In this document: positions 3,158 to 37,301 of the stretch, piece after piece
Position numbering within the stretch: the stretch's first letter is position 1
Layout: the number at the start of each line of letters is the position of its first letter
Assembly: GCF_000826685.1 (NCBI RefSeq)
Contig: NZ_JROO01000009.1
Span: 124,001-188,000, forward strand
Reading direction: 5' to 3'
Source of the DNA: Streptomonospora alba
GTDB lineage: Bacteria; Actinomycetota; Actinomycetes; Streptosporangiales; Streptosporangiaceae
Length of the DNA: 64,000 bases
Position numbers and translations under genes: made by a program
The notes under the pieces: generated by a model
What the model saw: only the letters and a program-made list of their open reading frames with translations
What the model was told of the DNA's origin: nothing
Database searches by the model: none

Positions 3158-3230
3158 GCCCCCATCGTCTAGTGGCCTAGGACGCCGCCCTTTCAAGGCG
3201 GTAACGCCGGTTCGAATCCGGTTGGGGGTA
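3158..3230 (+). tRNA. tRNA-Glu (TTC)
   Basis: A full cloverleaf: acceptor GCCCCCA pairs with TGGGGGT, followed by discriminator A. The anticodon stem CCGCC/GGCGG closes a CTTTCAA loop with anticodon TTC, and the T arm contains GGTTCGAATCC. CCA is not encoded. It is the first of three tRNAs in the same direction. Confidence 0.96.
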
Positions 3231-3336
3231 CGGCTCCGGTCAAAGCACTGCCGAAGGTCTGGCAGAATGAGACGCAGAGCGCGGAACGAATGATCCCGAT
3301 CGTTCGGATTTGTCGAGCCGCACGATAACAGAACAA

Positions 3337-3411
3337 GGTCCTGTGGAGCAGTTAGGAGTGCTCGCCACCCTGTCAAGGTGGAGGCCGCGGGTTCAAATCC
3401 CGTCAGGACCG
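3337..3411 (+). tRNA. tRNA-Asp (GTC), copy 1
   Basis: Acceptor GGTCCTG pairs with CAGGACC, followed by discriminator G. The anticodon stem CCACC/GGTGG closes a CTGTCAA loop (anticodon GTC), and the T loop is GTTCAAATC. It is identical over its whole length to the tRNA-Asp at 5647-5721. Confidence 0.96.
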
Positions 3412-3437
3412 CCTCGCACACCCGACGGTGTGTCTGG

Positions 3438-3511
3438 GGCCAGGTAGCTCAGTTGGTACGAGCGTCCGCCTGAAAAGCGGAAGGTCGGCGGTTCGACCCC
3501 GTCCCTGGCCA
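3438..3511 (+). tRNA. tRNA-Phe (GAA)
   Basis: Acceptor GGCCAGG pairs with CCTGGCC plus discriminator A. The anticodon stem TCCGC/GCGGA closes loop CTGAAAA with anticodon GAA, and the T loop is GTTCGACCC. It lies 26 bp after tRNA-Asp and is followed by a rho-independent terminator, so Glu-Asp-Phe may be one transcription unit. Confidence 0.96.
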
Positions 3512-3530
3512 CACAGTCTGAGCAGTGCGA

Positions 3531-5646: not shown

Positions 5647-5721
5647 GGTCCTGTGGAGCAGTTAGGAGTGCTCGCCACCCTGTCAAGGTGGAGGCCGCGG
5701 GTTCAAATCCCGTCAGGACCG
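5647..5721 (+). tRNA. tRNA-Asp (GTC), copy 2
   Basis: Identical base for base to tRNA-Asp at 3337-3411, including the unpaired positions, but with unrelated flanks apart from a few bases. Anticodon GTC lies in loop CTGTCAA. It stands alone, 65 bp before the AviRa-like gene. Confidence 0.96.
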
Positions 5722-5785
5722 CCCATCCCCGCATCCGCGTCATCCGCGTCGGCGGCCCGCCGCGCTGCGGCCGCGAAGGGATCCC

Positions 5786-16514: not shown

Positions 16515-16807
16515 GGGTCCACCATAGCCGCAGGACCGGTGTCGCCGACAGGAGCAGCCGGCTCGGGGGACGGCCCGCGCGGCCGGAACCGGCCGCCGCA
16601 GGAGGGAACCCGGTCGCGCGGCAGCTCAGGCGGCGGACCGTCGGCGCTCTGACCGCGCACCGCGCGACCCGGGGGCCGCCCAGCCCGTGCCGGGCCGGTC
16701 CGGCGGCCCCCGGCCTGCTCCCGTTCGCCCGACCGGCTGCTCATAGACTCGCCTTGACGCGGCCTCGCCGTGGGCCCCGCCACCCCCGAGACGAGGAATC
16801 CCCACCC

Positions 16808-18466
16808 ATGACGAATGAGAGCAGCGAGCCGGGACGCCTGCTGTCCGGCCGCTACCGCCTGAGCGAGCTGATCGGCGAGGGCGGCATGGGGCGTGTCTGG
16901 GAGGGCGTCGACGAGCTCCTGGACCGCCCGGTGGCGATCAAGGAACTGATCATTCCGCCGCAGCTGCCCGAGGCCGAGGTCGAGGTGGCCCGGACCCGGA
17001 TGCTGCGGGAGGCCCGCCACGCCGCCCAGCTCAGCCACCCCTCGATCATCACCGTCTTCGACGTGGTGGAGATCGACGAGCGGCCGTGGATCGTCATGGA
17101 ACTGGTGCGCGGGCCGTCGCTGGGCGATCTGGTCAAGCGCGACGGCGCCTTCGAGCCCGAGCGGGCGGCGCGCATCGGCGTGCAGTTGGCCTCGGCGCTG
17201 GCGGTCGCCCACGAGCGCGGCATCGTGCACCGCGACATCAAGCCCGCCAACGTGCTCCTCGCCCGTGGCGACCGCGCGGTGCTGACCGACTTCGGCATCG
17301 CCCACCTGGAGGGATCGAGCCACCTCACCAGCACCGGTCTGCTCGTGGGCTCGCCCAGCTACCTGGCGCCCGAGCAGGCGCACGGCAAGGCGGCGACTCC
17401 GGCCACCGACATGTGGTCGCTGGGTGTGACCCTCTACCAGGCGGTGGAGGGGGTGACGCCCTTCCACCGCGACACCCCGATGGCCACGCTGACCGCCATC
17501 GTCACCGCTGAGGTACCCCGGCCGCAGTCGGCCGGTGCGCTTGCGCCGGTGCTGGACCGGCTCCTGCACAAGGACCCCGACCTGCGGCCCCCGGTAGAGG
17601 AGGCGGCCCGGATGCTGCAGGAGGCCGCCGACAGGGGGTCCGACGCACGCGGCGCCCAAGCCACGACCTCGGCCGAGCCCGTGCAGGACGCGAGCGGCGC
17701 GGGCCGCGCCCCGGAATCGGCGGCGGCCTCCGGTCCCGCGGGCGGCGGCGCTGCCTCCGGTCCCGTGGGCGGCCGAGGCCGCGGCGCCCCGCTGGCGGTG
17801 CTGGGCGGCCTGGCGGCTCTGGCGGCGGTCTTCGCGCTCGTGCTGTGGCTGGGCACGCGCAGCGGCGCGCCCGAGGAGGCCGGCACCGCGGGCGAGAGCC
17901 TCTCGCCCGACGACGAGCAGCCCTCGGCCTCGTCCCCGCAACCGAGTGCCGGGCAGGACCAGGGCGGCGGGCAACAGGACGGCGGACAACAGGACGGCGG
18001 CGACAACGAGGACGAGCCCGATCTCCCCGACATGGACGAGTACGAGGACGACACAGGGTTCTCGGTCGACGTTCCCGAGGGCTGGTCCTACGACCGCCGC
18101 GAAGGCACCAGCGTCTTCTTCGACATCCCCTCCGGCGGCTATCTGCAGATCGATCAGACCGACGACCCGCCCGGCCACGCCGAGAGCGACTGGCGCGATC
18201 AGGCGCCCGCGCTCTCGCAGAACTTCCCCGGATACGAGTTGGTGGGCGTCGAATCGCTCGGAGAGGACTACGCCGACGACTACGTCAGCGCCGCGGACTG
18301 GGAGTTCACCTTCGACGGCTCGGGCGGCCGCATGCACGCCGTCAACCGCGCCTTCCACACCGAGGAGAAGGGCTACGCGCTCTTCCTGGTCTCCACCGAG
18401 GAGGAGTTCCCCCGCAACCGGGCGGTCCTGGACGAGATGACGGCGTCCTTCGATCCCGCGGACTGA
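16808..18466 (+). CDS. Membrane Ser/Thr protein kinase (PknB-type)
   Basis: 552 residues. The kinase domain (about residues 14-275) has the Gly loop [12 protein letters not shown], catalytic Lys in [14 protein letters not shown] near 141-148, TDFGIAHL and the APE segment YLAPEQA. A low-complexity juxtamembrane linker leads to one transmembrane helix ([20 protein letters not shown], near residue 330). The extracytoplasmic part starts with a Ser/Gln/Gly/Asp-rich spacer and ends in a ~130-residue beta-rich domain ([20 protein letters not shown]). There are no PASTA repeats, so it differs from cell-wall-sensing PknB. The chosen ATG at 16808 is the one adjacent to the kinase domain. It is monocistronic with a ~290-bp upstream gap. 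Confidence 0.92.
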
Positions 18467-24705: not shown

Positions 24706-25021
24706 GCCCGTGCGGGCCGCGGGTCCCGCCGCGCGGCGGGACCCGAGTGGCGGGGGCTTCCCGTGTTTCCCGGGGGTGCAACCGTGTTCGCACGGCAAAC
24801 AGGTACACTTCTCGCGGGCGCGAAAATCGTCGTTTCTTTGCCTTATGGGAAACCGGTCACCTGCTTAATGGTGTGTCCCATGTCACCGCTTCGCCAATGC
24901 GCGACAATTGTACTGTTTTGCTTCACTGGAGTTTAATTAGATCTGAACTCAAGACATGGTCGAGCCGGGACGGCGGCTTTCCCTGATCCCCCGCATCCCC
25001 GCCTGGAAAGGTTGCTCAGGC
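24706..25021 (+). promoter_or_regulatory. Promoter region of citrate synthase gene
   Basis: 316 bp without a gene and visibly AT-richer from 24820 to 24955 than its surroundings. It contains ATGGGA and TCCCAT arms about 30 bp apart and an AT-rich block (TTTAATTAGATCTGAA), and ends with GGAAAGG before the ATG at 25022. The start point cannot be fixed by eye. Confidence 0.5.
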
Positions 25022-26311
<1,290 letters not shown>

Positions 26312-29637: not shown

Positions 29638-32109
29638 ATGACCGAGTGCACCGACCCCGACTGCACCGGTGTGATCGACGACGGCTACTGCGACCAGTGC
29701 GGCATGGCACCGCTCGCCTCCGAGGCGATCGTCCCCGCCCCGCGGGTCTCCGGCACCACCACCACAGCGGCGGCGCCCACCGCCCCCGCGCCCCGCCCGC
29801 CCTCGGCGCCGCCCCTCGCCCACGGCGACAGCCCGGCCGAGCACGGCGGCGGGCCCTCCGCGCCGGCTGCGGACCCGGAGCGCTCCCCCGACGCCCCCGA
29901 CGTCGAGGACCCCTTCGCCTCGGGCCCCGCGTCCAGCCTGCGCGAGTCCCGCCTGTCCGGGGCCTCCGGGGCGTCCGGCTCATCGGGGCCGCGGCCGCGG
30001 GAGGGCGCCGATCCCGCCGTCGGCACCGTGAGCCGCCCCGGGGCACCCTCCTCCCGCGGGCTGCTGGGGCTGGGCATGGTCCAGGTGCCGCCCGTGCCCT
30101 ACCGCGACCCCGCCAGCGCCGTCCTCAGCGACCCGGTGGTCGCCGAGAAGAACCGCGTCTGCGGCTACTGCGGCGAGGCCGTGGGCCGCTCCCGCAACGG
30201 GCGCCCCGGCCGCACCGAGGGCTACTGCCGCGCCTGCCGCACCGAGTTCTCCTTCACCCCCAAGCTTGCCGCCGGCGACCTGGTCGCCGGCCAGTACGAA
30301 GTGCTCGGCTGCCTGGCCCACGGCGGGCTCGGCTGGATCTACCTCGCCCGCGACCACAACGTCAACGACCGGTGGGTCGTGCTCAAGGGCCTGCTCAACG
30401 TCGGCGACGCCGAGGCCCACAAGTCCGCCGCCGCCGAACGCGGCGTGCTGGCCGAGGTCGAGCACCCCAACGTCGTCAAGATCTACAACTTCGTGCAGCA
30501 CCCGGACCCGCGGACGGGCGTGCCCACCGGCCACATCGTCATGGAGTACGTCGGCGGCAAATCCCTGCGCGACCTGCTCCTGGAGCACCGGGCGCGCAAC
30601 CCCGGCGCCGACGGCCTGCCGGTGGACCGGGTGATCGCCTACGGCCTGGAGGCGCTGCGCGCCCTGGGGCACCTGCACAGCAAGGGCCTGCTCTACTGCG
30701 ACTTCAAGCCCGACAACGTCATCCAGAGCGAGGAGCAGATCAAGATCATCGACCTGGGAGCGGTGCGTCCCGTCGACGACCTGGTCACCCCCGTCTACAC
30801 CACCGTGGGTTACCGCGTCCCCGAGCGGGAGCTGCGCGAGACCGGCCCCTCCGTCAGCGCCGACATGTACTCGGTGGCGCGCTGCCTGGCCGTGCTCAGC
30901 TTCCGGTTCGACTTCGCCCGCGCCTACGATCACGACCTGCCCGACGCCGAGTCCGTGCCGGTGCTGCGGCGCTACCCCTCCTACGACCGGCTGCTGCGCC
31001 GGGCGCTTCAGCTCGAACCCTCGCTGCGCTTCTGCGACGCCGCCGAGATGGCCGAGCAGCTCACCGGTGTGCTGCGCGAGGTCCTCTCCGGCATGCACGG
31101 CCGCCCGCACCCCGCCCAGTCGGCCCTGTTCGGCGCCGAGCACCCGCTGTTCACCTCGGGCAACCTGGTGCGGGTCATCGACGAGACCGACCGGCTGCTG
31201 GGTCCGCCCGGCCCCGAGCGCGCCGCGGCCGCCCTGCCGCTTCCGCTCGTCGACTCCGCCGACGAGGCCGCCGCCCAGCTCAAAGGGCTCGCCACACTGC
31301 CCGACGAGGACCTGGCCGCCACTCTGGAAGGCGACGCCGACCCCACCCCCGAGGCGCAGCTGATGCTCGCCCGCGCCCTGATCGGTTTGGGCCGCCGCGA
31401 GGAGGCCGCCCACCGGCTGCAGGAGTTCGGCGCCTGCGCGCCCGGCGACTGGCGGCCGTTCTGGTACTGGGCGGTCATGGCGCTGGGCGCCCGCGACGGT
31501 TGCGACGCCCGCGAGCGGTTCGAGGAGCTGTTCGACCACCTGCCCGGCGAGGCGGCGCCCAAGCTCGGCCTGGCCGCCGCTTGCGAGCTGACCGGGGATC
31601 ACGCCGACGCCGAGCGGCTCTACCGCATCGTGTGGCTGACCGACCGCTCCTACGTCAGTGCCGGGTTCGGCCTGGCCCGCATCCGTCTGGCCCGCGGTGA
31701 CCCCGCCGGGGCCGTCGAGGTGCTGGACATGGTTCCCGAGCTCTCCAGCGTCTACATCGCCGCGCAGATGGCGGCGGTGAGCGTGCTGGTGATCGACAGG
31801 GACCCGCGCGCGGTGTCGGAGGAGGTGTTCCTGGACGCCGTGGGGCGCCTGAGCCGCCTGGGACTGCGCGGCGAGGCCCGCGACCGCCTCAACGCCCGCG
31901 TGCTGCGGGGCGCGCTGGACTGGGTGCTGTCCGGATGCGCCCCCGAGCCCGCGTACACCCGGCTGCTGGGAGCCCCGATGACCGAGGAAGGGCTGCGCGC
32001 CGGCCTGGAGCGCAGCTACCGCGAGCGCGCCCGCATCACCACCGACGCCATCCGTCGCCGCGAACTCGTGGATCGGGCCAACGCCGTACGGCCGAGGACG
32101 CTGCTGTGA
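29638..32109 (+). CDS. pknG: PknG-like Ser/Thr protein kinase with TPR domain
   Basis: 823 residues from ATG 29638, seven bases after CAGGAG. Order: an N-terminal CxxxxC/CxxC zinc ribbon (CTDPDC, CDQCG), a ~130-residue disordered linker, a rubredoxin-like knuckle (CGYCG from Cys175, then CRACRTEFSF), the kinase domain (~220-480) and a C-terminal TPR-like helical region. PknG hallmarks: catalytic Lys250 in VVLKGLLN, LYCDFKPDNVI (Asp355) instead of HRD, and IDLGAVRPV (Asp372) instead of DFG. It is cytosolic. In mycobacteria PknG phosphorylates the FHA protein GarA and so controls 2-oxoglutarate use. The extra zinc ribbon at the very N-terminus is shared in style with the downstream phosphatase and FHA protein. 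Confidence 0.93.
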   Translation: MTECTDPDCTGVIDDGYCDQCGMAPLASEAIVPAPRVSGTTTTAAAPTAPAPRPPSAPPLAHGDSPAEHGGGPSAPAADPERSPDAPDVEDPFASGPASSLRESRLSGASGASGSSGPRPREGADPAVGTVSRPGAPSSRGLLGLGMVQVPPVPYRDPASAVLSDPVVAEKNRVCGYCGEAVGRSRNGRPGRTEGYCRACRTEFSFTPKLAAGDLVAGQYEVLGCLAHGGLGWIYLARDHNVNDRWVVLKGLLNVGDAEAHKSAAAERGVLAEVEHPNVVKIYNFVQHPDPRTGVPTGHIVMEYVGGKSLRDLLLEHRARNPGADGLPVDRVIAYGLEALRALGHLHSKGLLYCDFKPDNVIQSEEQIKIIDLGAVRPVDDLVTPVYTTVGYRVPERELRETGPSVSADMYSVARCLAVLSFRFDFARAYDHDLPDAESVPVLRRYPSYDRLLRRALQLEPSLRFCDAAEMAEQLTGVLREVLSGMHGRPHPAQSALFGAEHPLFTSGNLVRVIDETDRLLGPPGPERAAAALPLPLVDSADEAAAQLKGLATLPDEDLAATLEGDADPTPEAQLMLARALIGLGRREEAAHRLQEFGACAPGDWRPFWYWAVMALGARDGCDARERFEELFDHLPGEAAPKLGLAAACELTGDHADAERLYRIVWLTDRSYVSAGFGLARIRLARGDPAGAVEVLDMVPELSSVYIAAQMAAVSVLVIDRDPRAVSEEVFLDAVGRLSRLGLRGEARDRLNARVLRGALDWVLSGCAPEPAYTRLLGAPMTEEGLRAGLERSYRERARITTDAIRRRELVDRANAVRPRTLL

Positions 32110-32317
32110 CCGGCCGCCCCGCCGCGGATCCGCCGCCGGGCGTTAGCCCCACCGTCCGGCGCGGGTATGGCCGTATCCGGGGGGACACGGCCCGAGGGGC
32201 CGCGGTCCGGGGGAGGACCGCCGCGCGGTCGGCGCGGTCCGATGGCGCCGCCGGCCGCCGGATTCGGCCGCACTGCGCGGGAGACCGCGCGTACGCGGCA
32301 GAGGGGAGGCGCGCAGC

Positions 32318-33364
32318 GTGCTGACCTGTCCGGTGTGCGGTGACGCCGTCGCGGCCGAGGACGCCTTCTGCGAGCACTGCGGCCACGCCCTGCGCGGCGA
32401 GGGCGCACCGGGCGCCGGGGGTGTCGCTGCGGCCCCGACCGTCCCGGACACCGCCGGTTCGCAGCCCCCCTGCGCCCGCTGCGGCGCCCGCGTGAGCGGG
32501 GGCGCCTGCACCGAATGCGGGCTGCGCCGCCGCACCGGCGACCACAGCGAGCTGCGACTGGGGACGGGTGCCGCCGGGGTGAGCGACCGCGGACTGCGCC
32601 ACGAACGCAACGAGGACGCCATGGCCCTGCGCGCCGTGGACCTGCCGGGCGCGGGCGATCGGGCCGCCGGGTCGGCGACCGCCGCAGTCGTCTGCGACGG
32701 GGTTTCCTCCTCGCCGCGCCCCGACTCCGCCGCCGCGGCCGCGGTCGAGGCCGGGGCCACGGCCCTGGCCGCGTCGCTGGAGAGCGGCCAGGGCACGGCC
32801 GAGGCCCTGAGCGCGGCGCTGCGCCGGGCGGCCGTAACCGTCGCGGCGCTCGCCGAGGCCCCCGGCCAGGCGCCCGCCTGCACCTTCGTGGGCGCCGCGG
32901 TGCCGGCGTCGGGCGGGCCGCTGGGCGTGGCCTGGGTCGGCGACAGCCGCGCCTACTGGGTCAGCGAGGGCCGCCCCGCCGCACCCTCGGCCCTGCTCAC
33001 CCGCGACGACTCCTGGAGCGAGGCCATGGTGGCGATGCACGTGCTCAGCCCCGAAGAGGCGGCGGTCTCGCCGCACGCCCACACGCTGACGGCGTGGCTG
33101 GGCGCCGACTACAGCGGAGCCGCCGGACGGGTGGCGGCCTTCGATCCGGGCGGCGCGGGCCGCCTGCTGCTGTGCAGCGACGGACTGTGGAACCACCTGC
33201 CCGAGCCCGCCGAGCTGGCGGGGCTCGTGCGCGGCGCCGGGGCCGACCCGCTCGCCGCGGCACGGGCGTGTGTCCGCTTCGCGCTGGAGCGCGGCGGGCG
33301 CGACAACGTCACGGCCGTGGTGATCGACGTACCCGGCCCCCGAACGGGGGAGGGGGTGCGATGA
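32318..33364 (+). CDS. PP2C-family Ser/Thr phosphatase with two zinc ribbons
   Basis: 348 residues from a GTG at 32318, eight bases after GAGGGGAGG. Two N-terminal zinc ribbons: CPVCGDAVAAEDAFCEHCG and CARCGARVSGGACTECG. The PP2C (PPM) domain then shows the metal-binding steps GVSDRGLRHERNEDAMAL, VVCDGVSSSPRPDSA, AWVGDSRAYWVSEG, LLLCSDGLWNHL and GRDNVTAVVID. The acidic residues that hold the two metals are present. It is cytosolic and probably reverses PknG-type phosphorylation; that partnership is inferred from position. Its stop overlaps the next start as ATGA. Confidence 0.93.
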   Translation: MLTCPVCGDAVAAEDAFCEHCGHALRGEGAPGAGGVAAAPTVPDTAGSQPPCARCGARVSGGACTECGLRRRTGDHSELRLGTGAAGVSDRGLRHERNEDAMALRAVDLPGAGDRAAGSATAAVVCDGVSSSPRPDSAAAAAVEAGATALAASLESGQGTAEALSAALRRAAVTVAALAEAPGQAPACTFVGAAVPASGGPLGVAWVGDSRAYWVSEGRPAAPSALLTRDDSWSEAMVAMHVLSPEEAAVSPHAHTLTAWLGADYSGAAGRVAAFDPGGAGRLLLCSDGLWNHLPEPAELAGLVRGAGADPLAAARACVRFALERGGRDNVTAVVIDVPGPRTGEGVR

Positions 33365-34125
33365 CCGCCGCCACGGGTCTCGTGCCGGGCCGCGGACCGG
33401 AGTTCGCCGTACGGGTGGAGGGCGACCGGCGGTTGCCGCCGGGCGGCGGCGATGTGCACGCGGTCGTGCGCGTCACCCGGATTCCGCCCGCCCCGGCCGC
33501 CGGTCCCGCACCGGCCGCCGAGGTCGCGCTGCGGCTGTGGACGCCCCGCGGCGCCCGGGTCGCCGCCCTGGTCCAGATCGCGCCCGGCGTCTGCGACCTC
33601 ACCGATCGGCGCACGCCCTGCGGACCACGCACCGGCGGCTACCCCGCCGGTTCCTGGGCCGACGAGAGCCGCGCCTACCACCTGCACCTGCGGGTGCCGT
33701 CCGCGCAGCCGGGCCGGCGGATGCGTGCGGCGCGCCTGCGCGTGCTGACCGCAGGCGCCGACCCGCAGGTCGCGGTCTGCGGCGACGTCCTCGCCGAGTG
33801 GATCGACGAGGACCGTCCGGCCGACCTGGGCCCGGCGACCGCCGGCGTCTACGACGGGCCCTCCCGCGCGGTGCAGGAGGGGCTGCACACGCGTCCGGAC
33901 GACGACACCGACACCGCCACCGTGCGGCTGGGGCGGGCGCCGGCGCCCGCCCGCTACGGGACGGCCGCCGCCGGACCGTTCGACACCGCCGCCGGGGCCG
34001 CCGAAACGGCCTCGGGCACGGTACGGCTGCGGGCGCTCGATGGAGCCTCCGAGGCGGCGCCGGAGACCTGCACGACCACAACGGAGCGCACGCGCGCGGG
34101 CGACCGCGAATCGGGGGCCGTGTGA
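33361..34125 (+). CDS. vWA-family protein lacking its vWA domain
   Basis: 254 residues, translationally coupled to the phosphatase (ATGA at 33361-33364). The beginning (PEFAVRVEGDRRLPPGGGDV, HAVVRVT) and the later part (VALRLWTPRGARVAALVQIA, LTDRRTPCGPRTGGYPAGSW, DESRAYHLHLRVPSAQPG, GTVRLRALDGAS) match, from memory, the two ends of a ~420-residue vWA protein found with PP2C and FHA genes in many actinobacteria. The central vWA domain (MIDAS motif DxSxS, ~170 residues) is missing, and the segments join smoothly. The C-terminal TPR-like helix is reduced as well. It has no cysteines for zinc and no membrane helix. It may act as a scaffold; function unknown. Confidence 0.7.
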   Translation: MTAATGLVPGRGPEFAVRVEGDRRLPPGGGDVHAVVRVTRIPPAPAAGPAPAAEVALRLWTPRGARVAALVQIAPGVCDLTDRRTPCGPRTGGYPAGSWADESRAYHLHLRVPSAQPGRRMRAARLRVLTAGADPQVAVCGDVLAEWIDEDRPADLGPATAGVYDGPSRAVQEGLHTRPDDDTDTATVRLGRAPAPARYGTAAAGPFDTAAGAAETASGTVRLRALDGASEAAPETCTTTTERTRAGDRESGAV

Positions 34126-34144
34126 GAGGAAGAAGGGGCCGATC

Positions 34145-34876
34145 ATGCCGACGTGTCCGGCCGGACACCTCTCGTCCGCCCGCGTCCGCTGCGACGTGTG
34201 CGGACTGCCCACCACCCAGCCGCCGACCGGTCCGGGCGCCGACGCGCCCGCCACTGACGAGACCTGCCCCGACTGCGCCGCCGTGCGCGACGGCCGCTTC
34301 TGCGAGGAGTGCGGCCACGACTTCACCGCCGCCGACAGCACCGAGGCCTCGCCGCTGCCCCTGACCCCGAACCGGCCCGCCCACCCCGCCGAGCACGACG
34401 GCACCGCCGTGCTCGGTACCGCCCGAAGCGCACCGCAGCCCGGAGCCGCCGCGGGACCGCAGCGCTCCACCTGGTGGGCGATCGTCTGCGCCGACCCCGC
34501 CTACTACCAGGCCATGGCCGACGGCGGTGTACTGGACCCCGCGGTCATCGCATTCCCCGCCCACGCGCCGCAGCGCCGCATGCCGCTGAACCGCGCCCGC
34601 GTCCGCATCGGGCGGCGCAGCCTCACGTTGGGCATCCACCCCGAGATCGACCTGGCCGGACCTCCCGAGGACCCGGCCGTCTCCCACACCCACGCCATGC
34701 TCATCGCCCGCCCCGGCGGAGGCTGGGTGCTGGTCGACGAGGGTTCCACGAACGGGACCACCCTCAACGGAACCGCCGAAGCGGTCCCGTCCAACACGGA
34801 GGTGCCCCTGCATGAGGCCGACCGCATCTACGTCGGCGCCTGGACCGTCATCGCCCTGCACCACCAGCGGGGGTGA
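34145..34876 (+). CDS. FHA-domain protein with zinc ribbons
   Basis: 243 residues from ATG 34145, after AGGAAGAAGGGG. The N-terminal ~60 residues carry two zinc-ribbon halves (CPAGHLSSARVRCDVCG and CPDCAAVRDGRFCEECG). After a disordered linker, the C-terminal FHA domain shows RVRIGRRSLTLGIHPEIDL, VSHTHAMLIARPGG and DEGSTNGTTLNG: the arginine/serine/asparagine set that reads phosphothreonine. It probably binds phosphorylated PknG or another kinase substrate, as GarA/OdhI does. Unlike GarA it has no obvious N-terminal ETTS phosphorylation motif. Only six bases separate it from the GlnX-like gene. Confidence 0.92.
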   Translation: MPTCPAGHLSSARVRCDVCGLPTTQPPTGPGADAPATDETCPDCAAVRDGRFCEECGHDFTAADSTEASPLPLTPNRPAHPAEHDGTAVLGTARSAPQPGAAAGPQRSTWWAIVCADPAYYQAMADGGVLDPAVIAFPAHAPQRRMPLNRARVRIGRRSLTLGIHPEIDLAGPPEDPAVSHTHAMLIARPGGGWVLVDEGSTNGTTLNGTAEAVPSNTEVPLHEADRIYVGAWTVIALHHQRG

Positions 34877-34882
34877 GGCGGA

Positions 34883-36379
34883 GTGGTGAAAGGCAGCACC
34901 GAGGCCCCCGAGATCGCCGACCGCCTGGCCACGCGGGCGGCCGACCGGGCGCGGCCCCGCACGCGGCTGCCGGCGTGGGTGGGGCGGCCCGGCACCCGCG
35001 GCTGGGTGTGGCTGCTCAGCGTGCTGTGCCTCGGCCTCACCGGCGTGCTGTTCGCCGTCACCGGCTCGGCGATCGCGCAGACCCGGGACGGGCTGGACGT
35101 CATCGGCCGCGACGAGGGGCCCAAGGTGGTGGCCACCGCCGATCTGTACTTCGCGCTGAGCGACATGGACGCCCAGATGGCCAACGTGCTGCTCATGGGT
35201 TCCGACCATTCCCTGGGCGACGGCCGCGACGCCGCCCTGGTCCGCTACGAGCAGCGCCGCTCCGACGCCACCGACGCGCTCCTGCACGCGGCCCAGTTGG
35301 CCGAGGGCGACGCGACCGACGAGGAGAACGTCCGCGCCGTCATCGAGGACATGAGCCGCTACGAGAACCTCGTGGCCCAGGCGCGCCTGCTCAGCGACGA
35401 AGCCGGACTCCCCGCCGGCTCCCAGCCCGAGGAGGTCGTGCGGCTCTATCGGCGGGCGGGCGAGCTGATGCGCCGCGACCTGCTGCCCAAGGCCTACAAC
35501 CTCACCCTCGACAGCGGTGCCACCGTGCGCAGCACCTACCAGGAGAACAGTTCGGCCGCGTCGGTGCGGATGGCCCTCGTCGCGGGGGCCGCCACCGCCC
35601 TGCTCGCGGCGCTTCTCGCCCTCCAGTACTTCCTGCGCACCCGCTTCCGGCGCCGTTACAACATCCCCCTGGCCGCGGCGACCGCCGGTGTCCTCGTGCT
35701 GGGCCTGGGGGCGATCGGCATGCTGGAGCAGCAGGCCGTCCTGCTGCGCACCGCCAAGGCGGACGGGCTCGACTCGGTACTGGCGCTCTCGCGCGCCCGC
35801 GCCATCAGCACCGGGATGAACGCCGACCAGAGCCGGTGGCTGATGGACCCCGGCCGCGCCGACATCTACGAGCAGAACTTCCTGGAGGACGCGCAGATGG
35901 TCCTGTTCCTGGTTCCCGACGACGACGGCGTGCCCGGCGACCTGGAGGAATACACCGCCGAGGTCGCCGAGGCCGTTCCCGACCACACCGCCTACCCCGG
36001 GCGGCTGCTCGGGCTGCTGGGGCAGGAGATCCACGCCGGGGGAGTCGAGGGCCGCGAGCAGGCCCAGCGGCGCGCCCTGCGCGATTACAGCGCCTACCTG
36101 CACGCCGACCAAAGGATGCGCGGCCGGGCCGAAGAGGAGGGCGCCGGCGCGGCCATCGACGCCCGCATGGCGGGCGAGGAGTCGGTGGCGGACCACTTCG
36201 ACCGCTATGAGCGGTCTCTCGTGCAGCTGACGGCGCTGCACACCAACACCTTCGAAACCGCCGTCGCCGACGCCCGCGCCGGACTGCGCGGCTGGGACGC
36301 GATCCTGCCTGGCGCGTGCCTGGGGTTCGCGGCCCTGGTGGTGCTGGGTGTACGGCCCCGGCTGGCCGAGTACCGCTAG
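34883..36379 (+). CDS. glnX: GlnX-like membrane sensor protein
   Basis: 498 residues from GTG 34883. Four membrane helices: GWVWLLSVLCLGLTGVLFAV, ALVAGAATALLAALLALQYF, a third (IPLAAATAGVLVLGLGAIGM) and one at the C-terminus (ILPGACLGFAALVVLGVRP). Two large helical extracytoplasmic segments (each with acidic helices such as DLYFALSDMDAQMANVLLMG) lie between helices 1-2 and 3-4. This layout and its place beside glnH and pknG match mycobacterial GlnX, which relays amino-acid binding from GlnH to PknG. Individual motifs are not well known to me, so the name rests mainly on topology and context. Confidence 0.75.
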   Translation: MVKGSTEAPEIADRLATRAADRARPRTRLPAWVGRPGTRGWVWLLSVLCLGLTGVLFAVTGSAIAQTRDGLDVIGRDEGPKVVATADLYFALSDMDAQMANVLLMGSDHSLGDGRDAALVRYEQRRSDATDALLHAAQLAEGDATDEENVRAVIEDMSRYENLVAQARLLSDEAGLPAGSQPEEVVRLYRRAGELMRRDLLPKAYNLTLDSGATVRSTYQENSSAASVRMALVAGAATALLAALLALQYFLRTRFRRRYNIPLAAATAGVLVLGLGAIGMLEQQAVLLRTAKADGLDSVLALSRARAISTGMNADQSRWLMDPGRADIYEQNFLEDAQMVLFLVPDDDGVPGDLEEYTAEVAEAVPDHTAYPGRLLGLLGQEIHAGGVEGREQAQRRALRDYSAYLHADQRMRGRAEEEGAGAAIDARMAGEESVADHFDRYERSLVQLTALHTNTFETAVADARAGLRGWDAILPGACLGFAALVVLGVRPRLAEYR

Positions 36380-36470
36380 CGGGGGCCTCGGCACGGTCGG
36401 CGGCGTGCCGGCGGAGACCACAGGAGGGCGGAGGGGTGCAGCGGAGGACCGCGAAGAAAGGCGAGGGCCG

Positions 36471-37301
36471 ATGGGACTGCGCCGACTGCTGACCGCGGCC
36501 GCCGCCGCGCTGGTGCTGGCCGCGTCGGGATCGTGCACCGAGGCCGTGGGCCGGCCCGCCTCGATCACCGACGCCGAACGCTTGCGCATCGGCGTCAAGA
36601 CCGACCAGCCGGGGCTGGCCCTGCGCGCCGACGACGGCACGTTCGCCGGCTTCGACGTGGACGTGGCCCATTACATCGCCGACGAGCTGGGTGTGGAGCG
36701 GGCCGAGGTGGACTTCACCGGGGTGAGCCCCCAGGAGCGCGAACAGGTGCTGGTCCGCGGCGAGGTCGACCTGGTGCTGGCCACCTACTCCATCACCCCG
36801 CTGCGCAAGACCGTCGTCGCGTTCGGCGGGCCCTACTACGTCGCCCACCAGGACATCCTGCTCCGCGCCGGCGACACCTCCGTGGCGGGCCCGGCCGACC
36901 TGGAGGGCAAGGTGCTGTGCCAGGGCGCCGACTCCGACTCCGCCGACCGGATCATCGGCGAGCGCGGCATCGCCGCCGAGAGCGTGGAGCGCCCCACCTA
37001 CGGCGACTGCATCGACCTGCTGGCCGCGGGCGAGGTCGACGCCGTCTCGACCGACGACCTGGTCCTTGCGGGCTACCTGGACACGGCACCGTCGTCGTTC
37101 AACCTGGTCAACGCGGCCTTCACGAACGAGAAGTACGGAGTGGGCATCGCCAGGCAGGACGTCGCCGGCTGCGAGGCGGTCAATCGGGCCATCACCCGGA
37201 TGTACCAGGACGGCACCGCGGCGTGGTTGCTGCGCAAGTGGTTCGGCGACAGCGGCCTGGACATCAACACCAGCGTTCCCCAGTTCGAGGGGTGCGTGTA
37301 G
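36471..37301 (+). CDS. glnH: GlnH-like glutamate/aspartate-binding protein
   Basis: 276 residues from ATG 36471. The N-terminus is a secretion signal (RRLLTAAAAALVLAASGSC); the Cys could be a lipid anchor although the lipobox lacks the usual Leu at -3. The rest is a periplasmic-binding-protein type II fold for polar amino acids: LRIGVKTDQPGLALR, FAGFDVDVAHYIADELG, DLVLATYSITPLRK, and VDAVSTDDLVLAGYL. No permease or ATPase gene is adjacent, so a sensory rather than transport role with the GlnX-like protein is likely, as in mycobacteria. It is the last gene of the kinase/phosphatase cluster. Confidence 0.88.
   Translation: MGLRRLLTAAAAALVLAASGSCTEAVGRPASITDAERLRIGVKTDQPGLALRADDGTFAGFDVDVAHYIADELGVERAEVDFTGVSPQEREQVLVRGEVDLVLATYSITPLRKTVVAFGGPYYVAHQDILLRAGDTSVAGPADLEGKVLCQGADSDSADRIIGERGIAAESVERPTYGDCIDLLAAGEVDAVSTDDLVLAGYLDTAPSSFNLVNAAFTNEKYGVGIARQDVAGCEAVNRAITRMYQDGTAAWLLRKWFGDSGLDINTSVPQFEGCV

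Follow-up and report, generated by a model that had tools for sequence, protein, structure and literature searches.

A putative ArnA-ArnB-like cassette with a decayed vWA gene in the PknG amino-acid sensing cluster of Streptomonospora alba

Introduction

Amino-acid sensing by GlnH, GlnX and the kinase PknG has been proposed from mycobacterial and corynebacterial experiments, and the available parts of the papers concerned treat GarA/OdhI as the output of the PknG sensor (PMC6069109, PMC9769921, PMC8546545). Here we analyse a stretch of 64,000 nucleotides from Streptomonospora alba, referred to below as the window (NCBI RefSeq assembly GCF_000826685.1, contig NZ_JROO01000009.1, positions 124,001 to 188,000 of the forward strand), in which genes for the same sensor, relay and kinase lie adjacent to one another, as in the glnX-glnH-pknG operon of Mycobacterium and Corynebacterium. 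Unlike that operon, the cluster of the window adds genes for a PP2C phosphatase, a vWA-family protein and a zinc-ribbon FHA protein, and its blocks are exchanged, so that PknG comes first. The three-gene PknG sensor is already known, and the six-gene unit is not new to the genome of the window; the locus represents, in partly decayed form, an extension of the known sensor that is widespread and, so far as we could find, undescribed.

The second system with which the locus can be compared is the ArnA-ArnB archaellum switch of Sulfolobus. In the available text of the archaeal structural study, ArnB has an eight-stranded beta-sandwich, split by its vWA domain, and a helical bundle at the C-terminus; the zinc finger of ArnA contacts the sandwich and its linker, and the FHA domain of ArnA binds the helical bundle once phosphorylation by ArnC has taken place, a step that PP2A reverses and that is under nutrient control (PMC12852372). 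A third point of reference is PDB 4fx5, a vWA protein of Catenulispora acidiphila, which according to the available text of PMC6509490 resembles an ArnB paralogue.

On our reading, the PP2C-vWA-FHA cassette of the actinobacterial cluster appears to resemble this archaeal phospho-switch, since the full-length relatives of the vWA protein are predicted to have the ArnB fold and adjoin a zinc-ribbon FHA protein like ArnA. The best explanation of the locus would thus be an actinobacterial amino-acid sensing phosphorylation module with an ArnAB-like readout, whose vWA half has decayed in the window, and we give this explanation about an even chance of being right. We found no paper in the open-licence literature that links the PknG sensor cluster to ArnA-ArnB; in open-licence full text, ArnA, ArnB and PknG occurred together only in a paper on lipopolysaccharide modification.

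Gene content of the locus

The cluster spans positions 29638 to 37301 of the window and comprises, in this order:

29638..32109, + strand: PknG Ser/Thr kinase (PknG_TPR 2.6e-84, PknG_rubred 3.3e-23, Pkinase 9.5e-25)
32318..33364, + strand: PP2C-type Ser/Thr phosphatase with N-terminal zinc ribbons (PP2C_2 1.6e-10, Zn_Ribbon_1 7.4e-6)
33361..34125, + strand: remnant of an ArnB-like vWA protein, without the vWA insert (homologous full vWA protein at this position in sister genomes)
34145..34876, + strand: double zinc-ribbon FHA protein, not GarA/OdhI (FHA 7e-11)
34883..36379, + strand: GlnX membrane relay (NF058618 GlnX family, 261.4 bits, cut-off 250)
36471..37301, + strand: GlnH extracytoplasmic amino-acid binding protein (SBP_bac_3 1.1e-26)

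All six genes are present in one line, with the order and short gaps that a preliminary description of the window had given them; from PknG to GlnH, the spacing computed from the coordinates is 208, -4, 19, 6 and 91 bases. Likewise as described there, no transporter permease or ATPase was found among the six with Pfam and NCBIfam. From this spacing and from the conservation set out below, we infer that the six genes are co-transcribed; a scan of the region for sigma-70 promoters and terminators gave none, using patterns that are poorly suited to such a GC-rich genome.

PknG carries an N-terminal zinc ribbon (read by eye) and rubredoxin, kinase and TPR domains, the last of which scores 283.4 bits against a cut-off of 27, and its best segment is 82% identical to the orthologue of Streptomonospora sp. 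PA3. GlnX reaches its family model and falls under the cut-off of the equivalog model NF041460 (52.5 bits, cut-off 780), which sets it apart from the Mycobacterium and Corynebacterium operon. GlnH, possibly a lipoprotein to judge from a signal read by eye, aligns with M. tuberculosis GlnH (PDB 6h1u, 2.4e-26), and its Asp/Glu pocket is mostly kept, with R147, T162, S164, R169 and D250 retained, W232 replaced by Tyr and K161 by Ala; the roles of these residues are those given in the available text of PMC6069109. Across 87 aligned sequences, that of the window included, R147 is present in all 87, T162 is Thr or Ser in 87/87, R169 is kept in 85/87 and D250 in 86/87. The PknG_TPR and NF058618 matches together with these pocket residues support the amino-acid sensing line proposed in the preliminary description: the ligand of GlnH is likely of the Asp/Glu type, and the locus probably senses external aspartate or glutamate and passes the signal inward by protein phosphorylation. 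The phosphatase matches the Stp1_PP2C_phos model at 2.8e-25 with 89.2 bits, under its cut-off of 230.

Conservation of the cluster in actinobacteria

In order to compare gene orders, 115 PknG loci were assembled from the window, 40 stretches from relatives and the best 80 loci of one scan, less 6 duplicates; further near-duplicates may remain among them. Gene-order counts refer to the 94 loci, window included, that have enough flank, the other 21 being cut by contig or fetch ends. Since the samples were drawn by similarity to PknG or vWA, all counts describe loci with those genes rather than all genomes.

The synteny comparison that the preliminary description had proposed finds all six parts in 60 of the 94 loci, in two block orders, so that the phosphatase and the FHA protein do belong to the same conserved unit. 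The order PknG-PP2C-vWA-FHA-GlnX-GlnH with a vWA domain accounts for 49 loci, and 5 more have this order with the vWA gene reduced to its C-terminal part, among them the window and L093, a likely pseudogene. The blocks are exchanged in 6 loci (GlnX-GlnH-PknG-PP2C-vWA-FHA), GlnX-GlnH-PknG stands alone in 10, and other gene subsets make up the remaining 24. A GlnX-family neighbour of PknG is found in 91/94 loci (threshold 30 bits, counted from the table). The three added genes behave as a cassette: PP2C, the C-terminal part of vWA and FHA are all present in 65/94 loci, all missing in 15/94 and mixed in 14/94, again as counted from the table. Furthermore, a full-length vWA protein used as query against 394 genomes of the class gave matches in 94 genomes; in the best 30 of those loci, all from one genus, PP2C precedes and FHA follows vWA in 30/30, and in the 20 of these examined with wider flanks the order is GlnX-GlnH-PknG-PP2C-vWA-FHA in 20/20, which adds a further, distant genus. 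The six-gene order is thus far beyond chance, and the arrangement is widely conserved in actinobacteria and not special to the genome of the window.

More than one PknG cluster can occur in a genome. In G041 there is a five-part cluster, in which GlnH was not found, and a reduced PknG-vWA-GlnX-GlnH cluster (L060/L061); Actinomadura barringtoniae has three PknG loci (L100/L110/L121), one of which is only PknG-GlnX. At L072 (G081:C1:529500-548500), a divergent PknG-like kinase adjoins a vWA protein, with neither GlnX nor GlnH; the genome has a standard cluster as well, and weak vWA matches, at 32-35% identity, occur in six genomes of its genus.

Similarity to ArnA and ArnB

In the sister genomes at L036, L037 and L038 the third gene codes for a complete protein in which the vWA domain is present. 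The protein of L036, 442 residues as aligned, was modelled with AlphaFold2 from an alignment of 49 sequences, giving a mean predicted local distance difference test (pLDDT) score of 91.4. The predicted model has the ArnB-type layout, with a vWA domain inserted in a beta-sandwich and a helical C-terminus. Its best PDB match, and hence the nearest solved structure, is 4fx5 (template modelling (TM) score 0.90, 46% identity), followed by the ArnAB complex 8s05 (TM 0.67-0.68) and the ArnB paralogue 5a8j (TM 0.58). The Catenulispora gene of 4fx5 itself was not found in the genomes sampled, where the best identity was 58%. The vWA profile matches 8s05_A, which we take to be ArnB, at 1e-7, the match being confined to the vWA domain. 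Residues D59, S61, S63, T132 and D161, presumably the metal ion-dependent adhesion site (MIDAS), are invariant in the 49 vWA proteins.

The family ends in a Thr/Ser-rich tail, in which S426 and T429 are invariant in the 49 and pLDDT falls below 50 from residue 435 of the L036 model. The tail pattern is present in 70 of 81 family members; the 11 without it are the window, L039, L040, L049, L073, two proteins cut at contig ends and four small variations. At L049, the vWA protein is without a vWA domain, and a single reading frame joins its C-terminal part to the zinc-ribbon FHA protein. In the FHA protein, the five ribbon cysteines (C16, C19, C41, C44 and C53) are invariant among 39 aligned sequences, as are G156, R157, S180, H183 and N203, of which we take R157, S180 and N203 to be the phosphothreonine-binding residues.

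The likeness to the archaeal switch has several parts. First, zinc-ribbon FHA and vWA genes are neighbours in the actinobacterial loci, and in the predicted model the full-length relatives show the domain layout of ArnB. Second, where the kinase ArnC and the phosphatase PP2A act on the archaeal pair, a kinase gene and a Ser/Thr phosphatase gene are linked here. A third point is that ArnA-ArnB is nutrient-dependent in archaea. On the other hand, the present system is bacterial, its kinase and phosphatase come from other families, and it is coupled to a periplasmic amino-acid sensor; unlike ArnB, the copy in the window has neither the vWA insert nor the helical end, and unlike 4fx5 it has no vWA domain.

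Decay of the vWA gene in Streptomonospora

The remnant in the window matches no Pfam family and contains no vWA domain, and in sister genomes its position is taken by the full vWA protein to which it is homologous; this bears out the preliminary description, which had called it a vWA relic. In its model, the block of residues 11-150 has pLDDT of 80-98, mostly above 90, and the rest is mostly below 50; the protein is predicted to close its beta-sandwich without the insert, keeping the Thr-rich tail and losing the C-terminal helices. The vWA insert is absent from the window, L040 and L039. In L039, the helical C-terminal domain (Pfam VWA_3_C) and the QN loop motif are still present, and both are lost in the window and in L040 (the helices of L040 being judged by eye).

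The ratio of nonsynonymous to synonymous substitution rates (dN/dS), estimated roughly by the Nei-Gojobori method at a GC content of about 74%, is 0.71 for the remnant between window and L040, 0.67 between window and L039, and 0.88 between L040 and L039, compared with 0.21-0.52 for the other five genes; single values are noisy, since GlnX reached 0.74 in the pair L037-L038. Between L039 and the full-length L036, the ratio of the vWA gene is 0.47 and that of PP2C 0.45, so that constraint did not vanish at once upon loss of the vWA insert. All remnant indels are multiples of three (6/6 against L040, 4/4 against L039), and the beta-sandwich part is better conserved than the tail (79% against 59% identity). 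The remnant is in frame but under relaxed constraint, which leaves two options: either the sandwich still serves, or the frame is kept by translational coupling.

In the second option, the remnant makes no useful protein and its frame is retained for the sake of coupling to FHA and GlnX, which is compatible with the best explanation given above. We regard this as a serious candidate, somewhat short of an even prospect. It is favoured by the 4-base overlap upstream and the 19-base gap downstream, by the dN/dS of the remnant, which exceeds that of the other five genes in all three comparisons among window, L040 and L039, by the predicted disorder of the tail and by loci in which the vWA gene is labelled absent altogether (L068, L077, L087, L089, L095 and L098). 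The indel pattern, the better conservation of the sandwich and the L039-L036 ratio speak against it.

The vWA domain is also missing in L073. A quick PknG tree of 76 chosen rows requires 3 changes or more to account for the vWA-less state, with L073 on a long and unsure branch; vWA loss in Streptomonospora may be one event or two, since L039, L036 and the window with L040 form an open fork. The loci thus provide a natural series, from full vWA through vWA-less protein, sandwich only and pseudogene to gene lost.

GarA and the output of the sensor

The preliminary description had interpreted the locus as a self-contained switch from Asp/Glu to the tricarboxylic acid (TCA) cycle. Of that interpretation, the sensing line, the conserved unit and the relic stand, and the self-contained TCA switch does not. 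The FHA protein of the cluster scores 20.4 bits against the OdhI equivalog model (cut-off 200) and contains no ETTS phosphorylation site in its sequence. The GarA of this genome, outside the cluster, is encoded on contig C22, scores 190 bits, just under the OdhI cut-off, and carries the site ETTSTIS, a feature shared with the Mycobacterium and Corynebacterium system. We thus reject the identification of the cluster FHA protein with GarA/OdhI. In a sample of 100 genomes, which includes that of the window and in which five in all are assigned to the same genus, a strong GarA match (E below 1e-30) was found in 95 and a strong PknG match (E below 1e-40) in 38; at E<=0.001 these become 100/100, with other FHA proteins among them, and 41/100. 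Given these frequencies and the location of GarA on another contig, the TCA effector is neither in the cluster nor tied to it, and PknG may act on a GarA encoded elsewhere.

The GarA site was surveyed by eye in 91 of the 100 genomes, nine (G025, G039, G054, G063, G073, G077, G086, G088 and G092) being dropped for a weak, cut or unfetched GarA. The first position of the ETTS-type site is Thr or Ser in 34 of 36 genomes with PknG and in 35 of 55 without it, where 15 have another residue and 5 are unclear. This overall gap is confounded with ancestry, since within family f1 the site is kept equally with PknG (30/31) and without it (26/27). The idea that the first phospho-residue of GarA tracks PknG was accordingly rejected and counted as negative.

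These data bear on a plainer explanation, in which GlnH, GlnX and PknG control GarA as in mycobacteria, the PP2C reverses GarA phosphorylation, and the vWA and FHA proteins are incidental or unrelated. The near-constant Thr or Ser in PknG-bearing genomes speaks for it; the vWA gene is dispensable, being repeatedly truncated or lost, and the 10 loci with GlnX-GlnH-PknG alone fit as well. Nevertheless, adjacency of PP2C, vWA and FHA in two block orders and in the 20/20 loci of a distant genus is unlikely for passengers, and family f1 gives no sign that the GarA site depends on PknG. We therefore consider this explanation unlikely, while taking it seriously.

A second GarA-like inhibitor of 2-oxoglutarate dehydrogenase in the cluster, which would restore the self-contained TCA switch, is far less probable: the FHA protein does lie beside pknG, and its profile weakly matches GarA and OdhI structures (6e-5 to 1e-3), but the low OdhI score, the missing ETTS, the long double zinc-ribbon N-terminus and the true GarA elsewhere in the genome all stand against it. 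Equally improbable is an assignment of the kinase-PP2C-vWA triad to the regulators known from the vicinity of GTPase-centred conflict systems instead of to metabolism, since the triad has GlnX and GlnH as neighbours, its kinase is a TPR-type PknG, and no GTPase occurs among the scanned neighbour genes of the window (the loci of relatives were not searched for one).

Proposed mechanism and significance

The amino-acid sensing module with an ArnAB-like readout could operate as follows. GlnH would bind aspartate or glutamate outside the cell, and GlnX would relay this to the TPR domain of PknG, as homology and the pocket residues suggest. In most relatives, PknG and the neighbouring PP2C would then set the phosphorylation of the vWA protein on its helical, Thr-rich C-terminus, and the zinc-ribbon FHA protein would read it, with the ribbon on the beta-sandwich and the FHA domain on phosphothreonine; this step is suggested by architecture, gene linkage and the one gene fusion at L049. 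GarA, encoded elsewhere, may be a second PknG target, acting on 2-oxoglutarate dehydrogenase. In the lineage of the window, the vWA insert would have been lost first and the helical end eroded afterwards, leaving the predicted beta-sandwich and the Thr-rich tail next to the sensor, kinase, phosphatase and FHA protein, which remain; the sandwich may serve as a docking platform.

In its full form, the proposal is that Actinobacteria run a counterpart of ArnA-ArnB, in which GlnH, GlnX and PknG report external Asp/Glu, an ArnB-like vWA protein has its phosphorylation controlled by PknG and PP2C, and the zinc-ribbon FHA protein reads this phosphorylation in parallel to GarA, and that in Streptomonospora the vWA half has been dismantled stepwise down to the sandwich, the place where the zinc finger docks in archaea. 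We put this forward tentatively, as somewhat less than an even bet.

Several observations weigh against the sensing module with an ArnAB-like readout. At the level of the domain, the profile of the cluster FHA protein is closer to GarA (6e-5) than to ArnA (5a8i at 0.014; 8s05_C, which we take to be ArnA, at 0.003), so that its ArnA-like role is argued from architecture and context. Of the 81 family members, 5 have no QN motif in the loop between the first two strands, at which the zinc finger of ArnA docks in the archaeal structure; these are the window, L040, L073 and the two full-length proteins of L091 and L148. FHA and PP2C occur without vWA in 4 loci with enough flank, and the C-terminal part of vWA occurs without FHA in another such set of 4. 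Trp232 of M. tuberculosis GlnH is Tyr in 68 of the 87 aligned sequences, including that of the window. Finally, according to the available text of PMC12852372, most proteins laid out like ArnB take no part in multi-phosphorylation processes of this kind.

Should the cassette prove to be a second output of the ArnAB type, the amino-acid sensing of many actinobacteria, antibiotic producers probably among them, would have an arm that has not been studied, and a nutrient switch described in archaea would be common to two domains of life. The vWA and FHA proteins are small and adjacent, and the natural decay series separates the parts.

Chromosomal surroundings

Upstream of the cluster lie citrate synthase (24956-26311), a DUF308 protein and a two-component pair, whose response regulator is 294 bases from PknG. 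The downstream neighbours are a DUF6221 gene, an oppositely oriented pyridine-nucleotide oxidoreductase gene and glucose-6-phosphate isomerase. Citrate synthase lies 3.3 kb from the cluster, as the preliminary description had noted. It is found within the flank in 28 of the 115 loci, and the DUF308 gene upstream in 29; a histidine kinase and a response regulator beside PknG occur in fewer (11 and 15 of 115). The named loci with citrate synthase carry the titles Nocardiopsis or Streptomonospora, except for one titled Glycomyces, which the PknG tree groups with Nocardiopsis; the clusters of Actinomadura and others are without citrate synthase. Since the adjacency is limited to this one lineage among the loci sampled, it looks like a shared chromosomal position and not a shared function. 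The PknG tree places L084, titled Streptomonospora nanhaiensis, and L087, titled Glycomyces fuscus, within Nocardiopsis; these two records are perhaps mislabelled or misclassified.

Elsewhere in the window, a second Ser/Thr protein kinase gene lies at 16754-18466, about 11 kb upstream of PknG. Genes for tRNA-Glu, tRNA-Asp and tRNA-Phe are consecutive at 3158-3512, with another tRNA-Asp about 2 kb further on, at 5647-5723.

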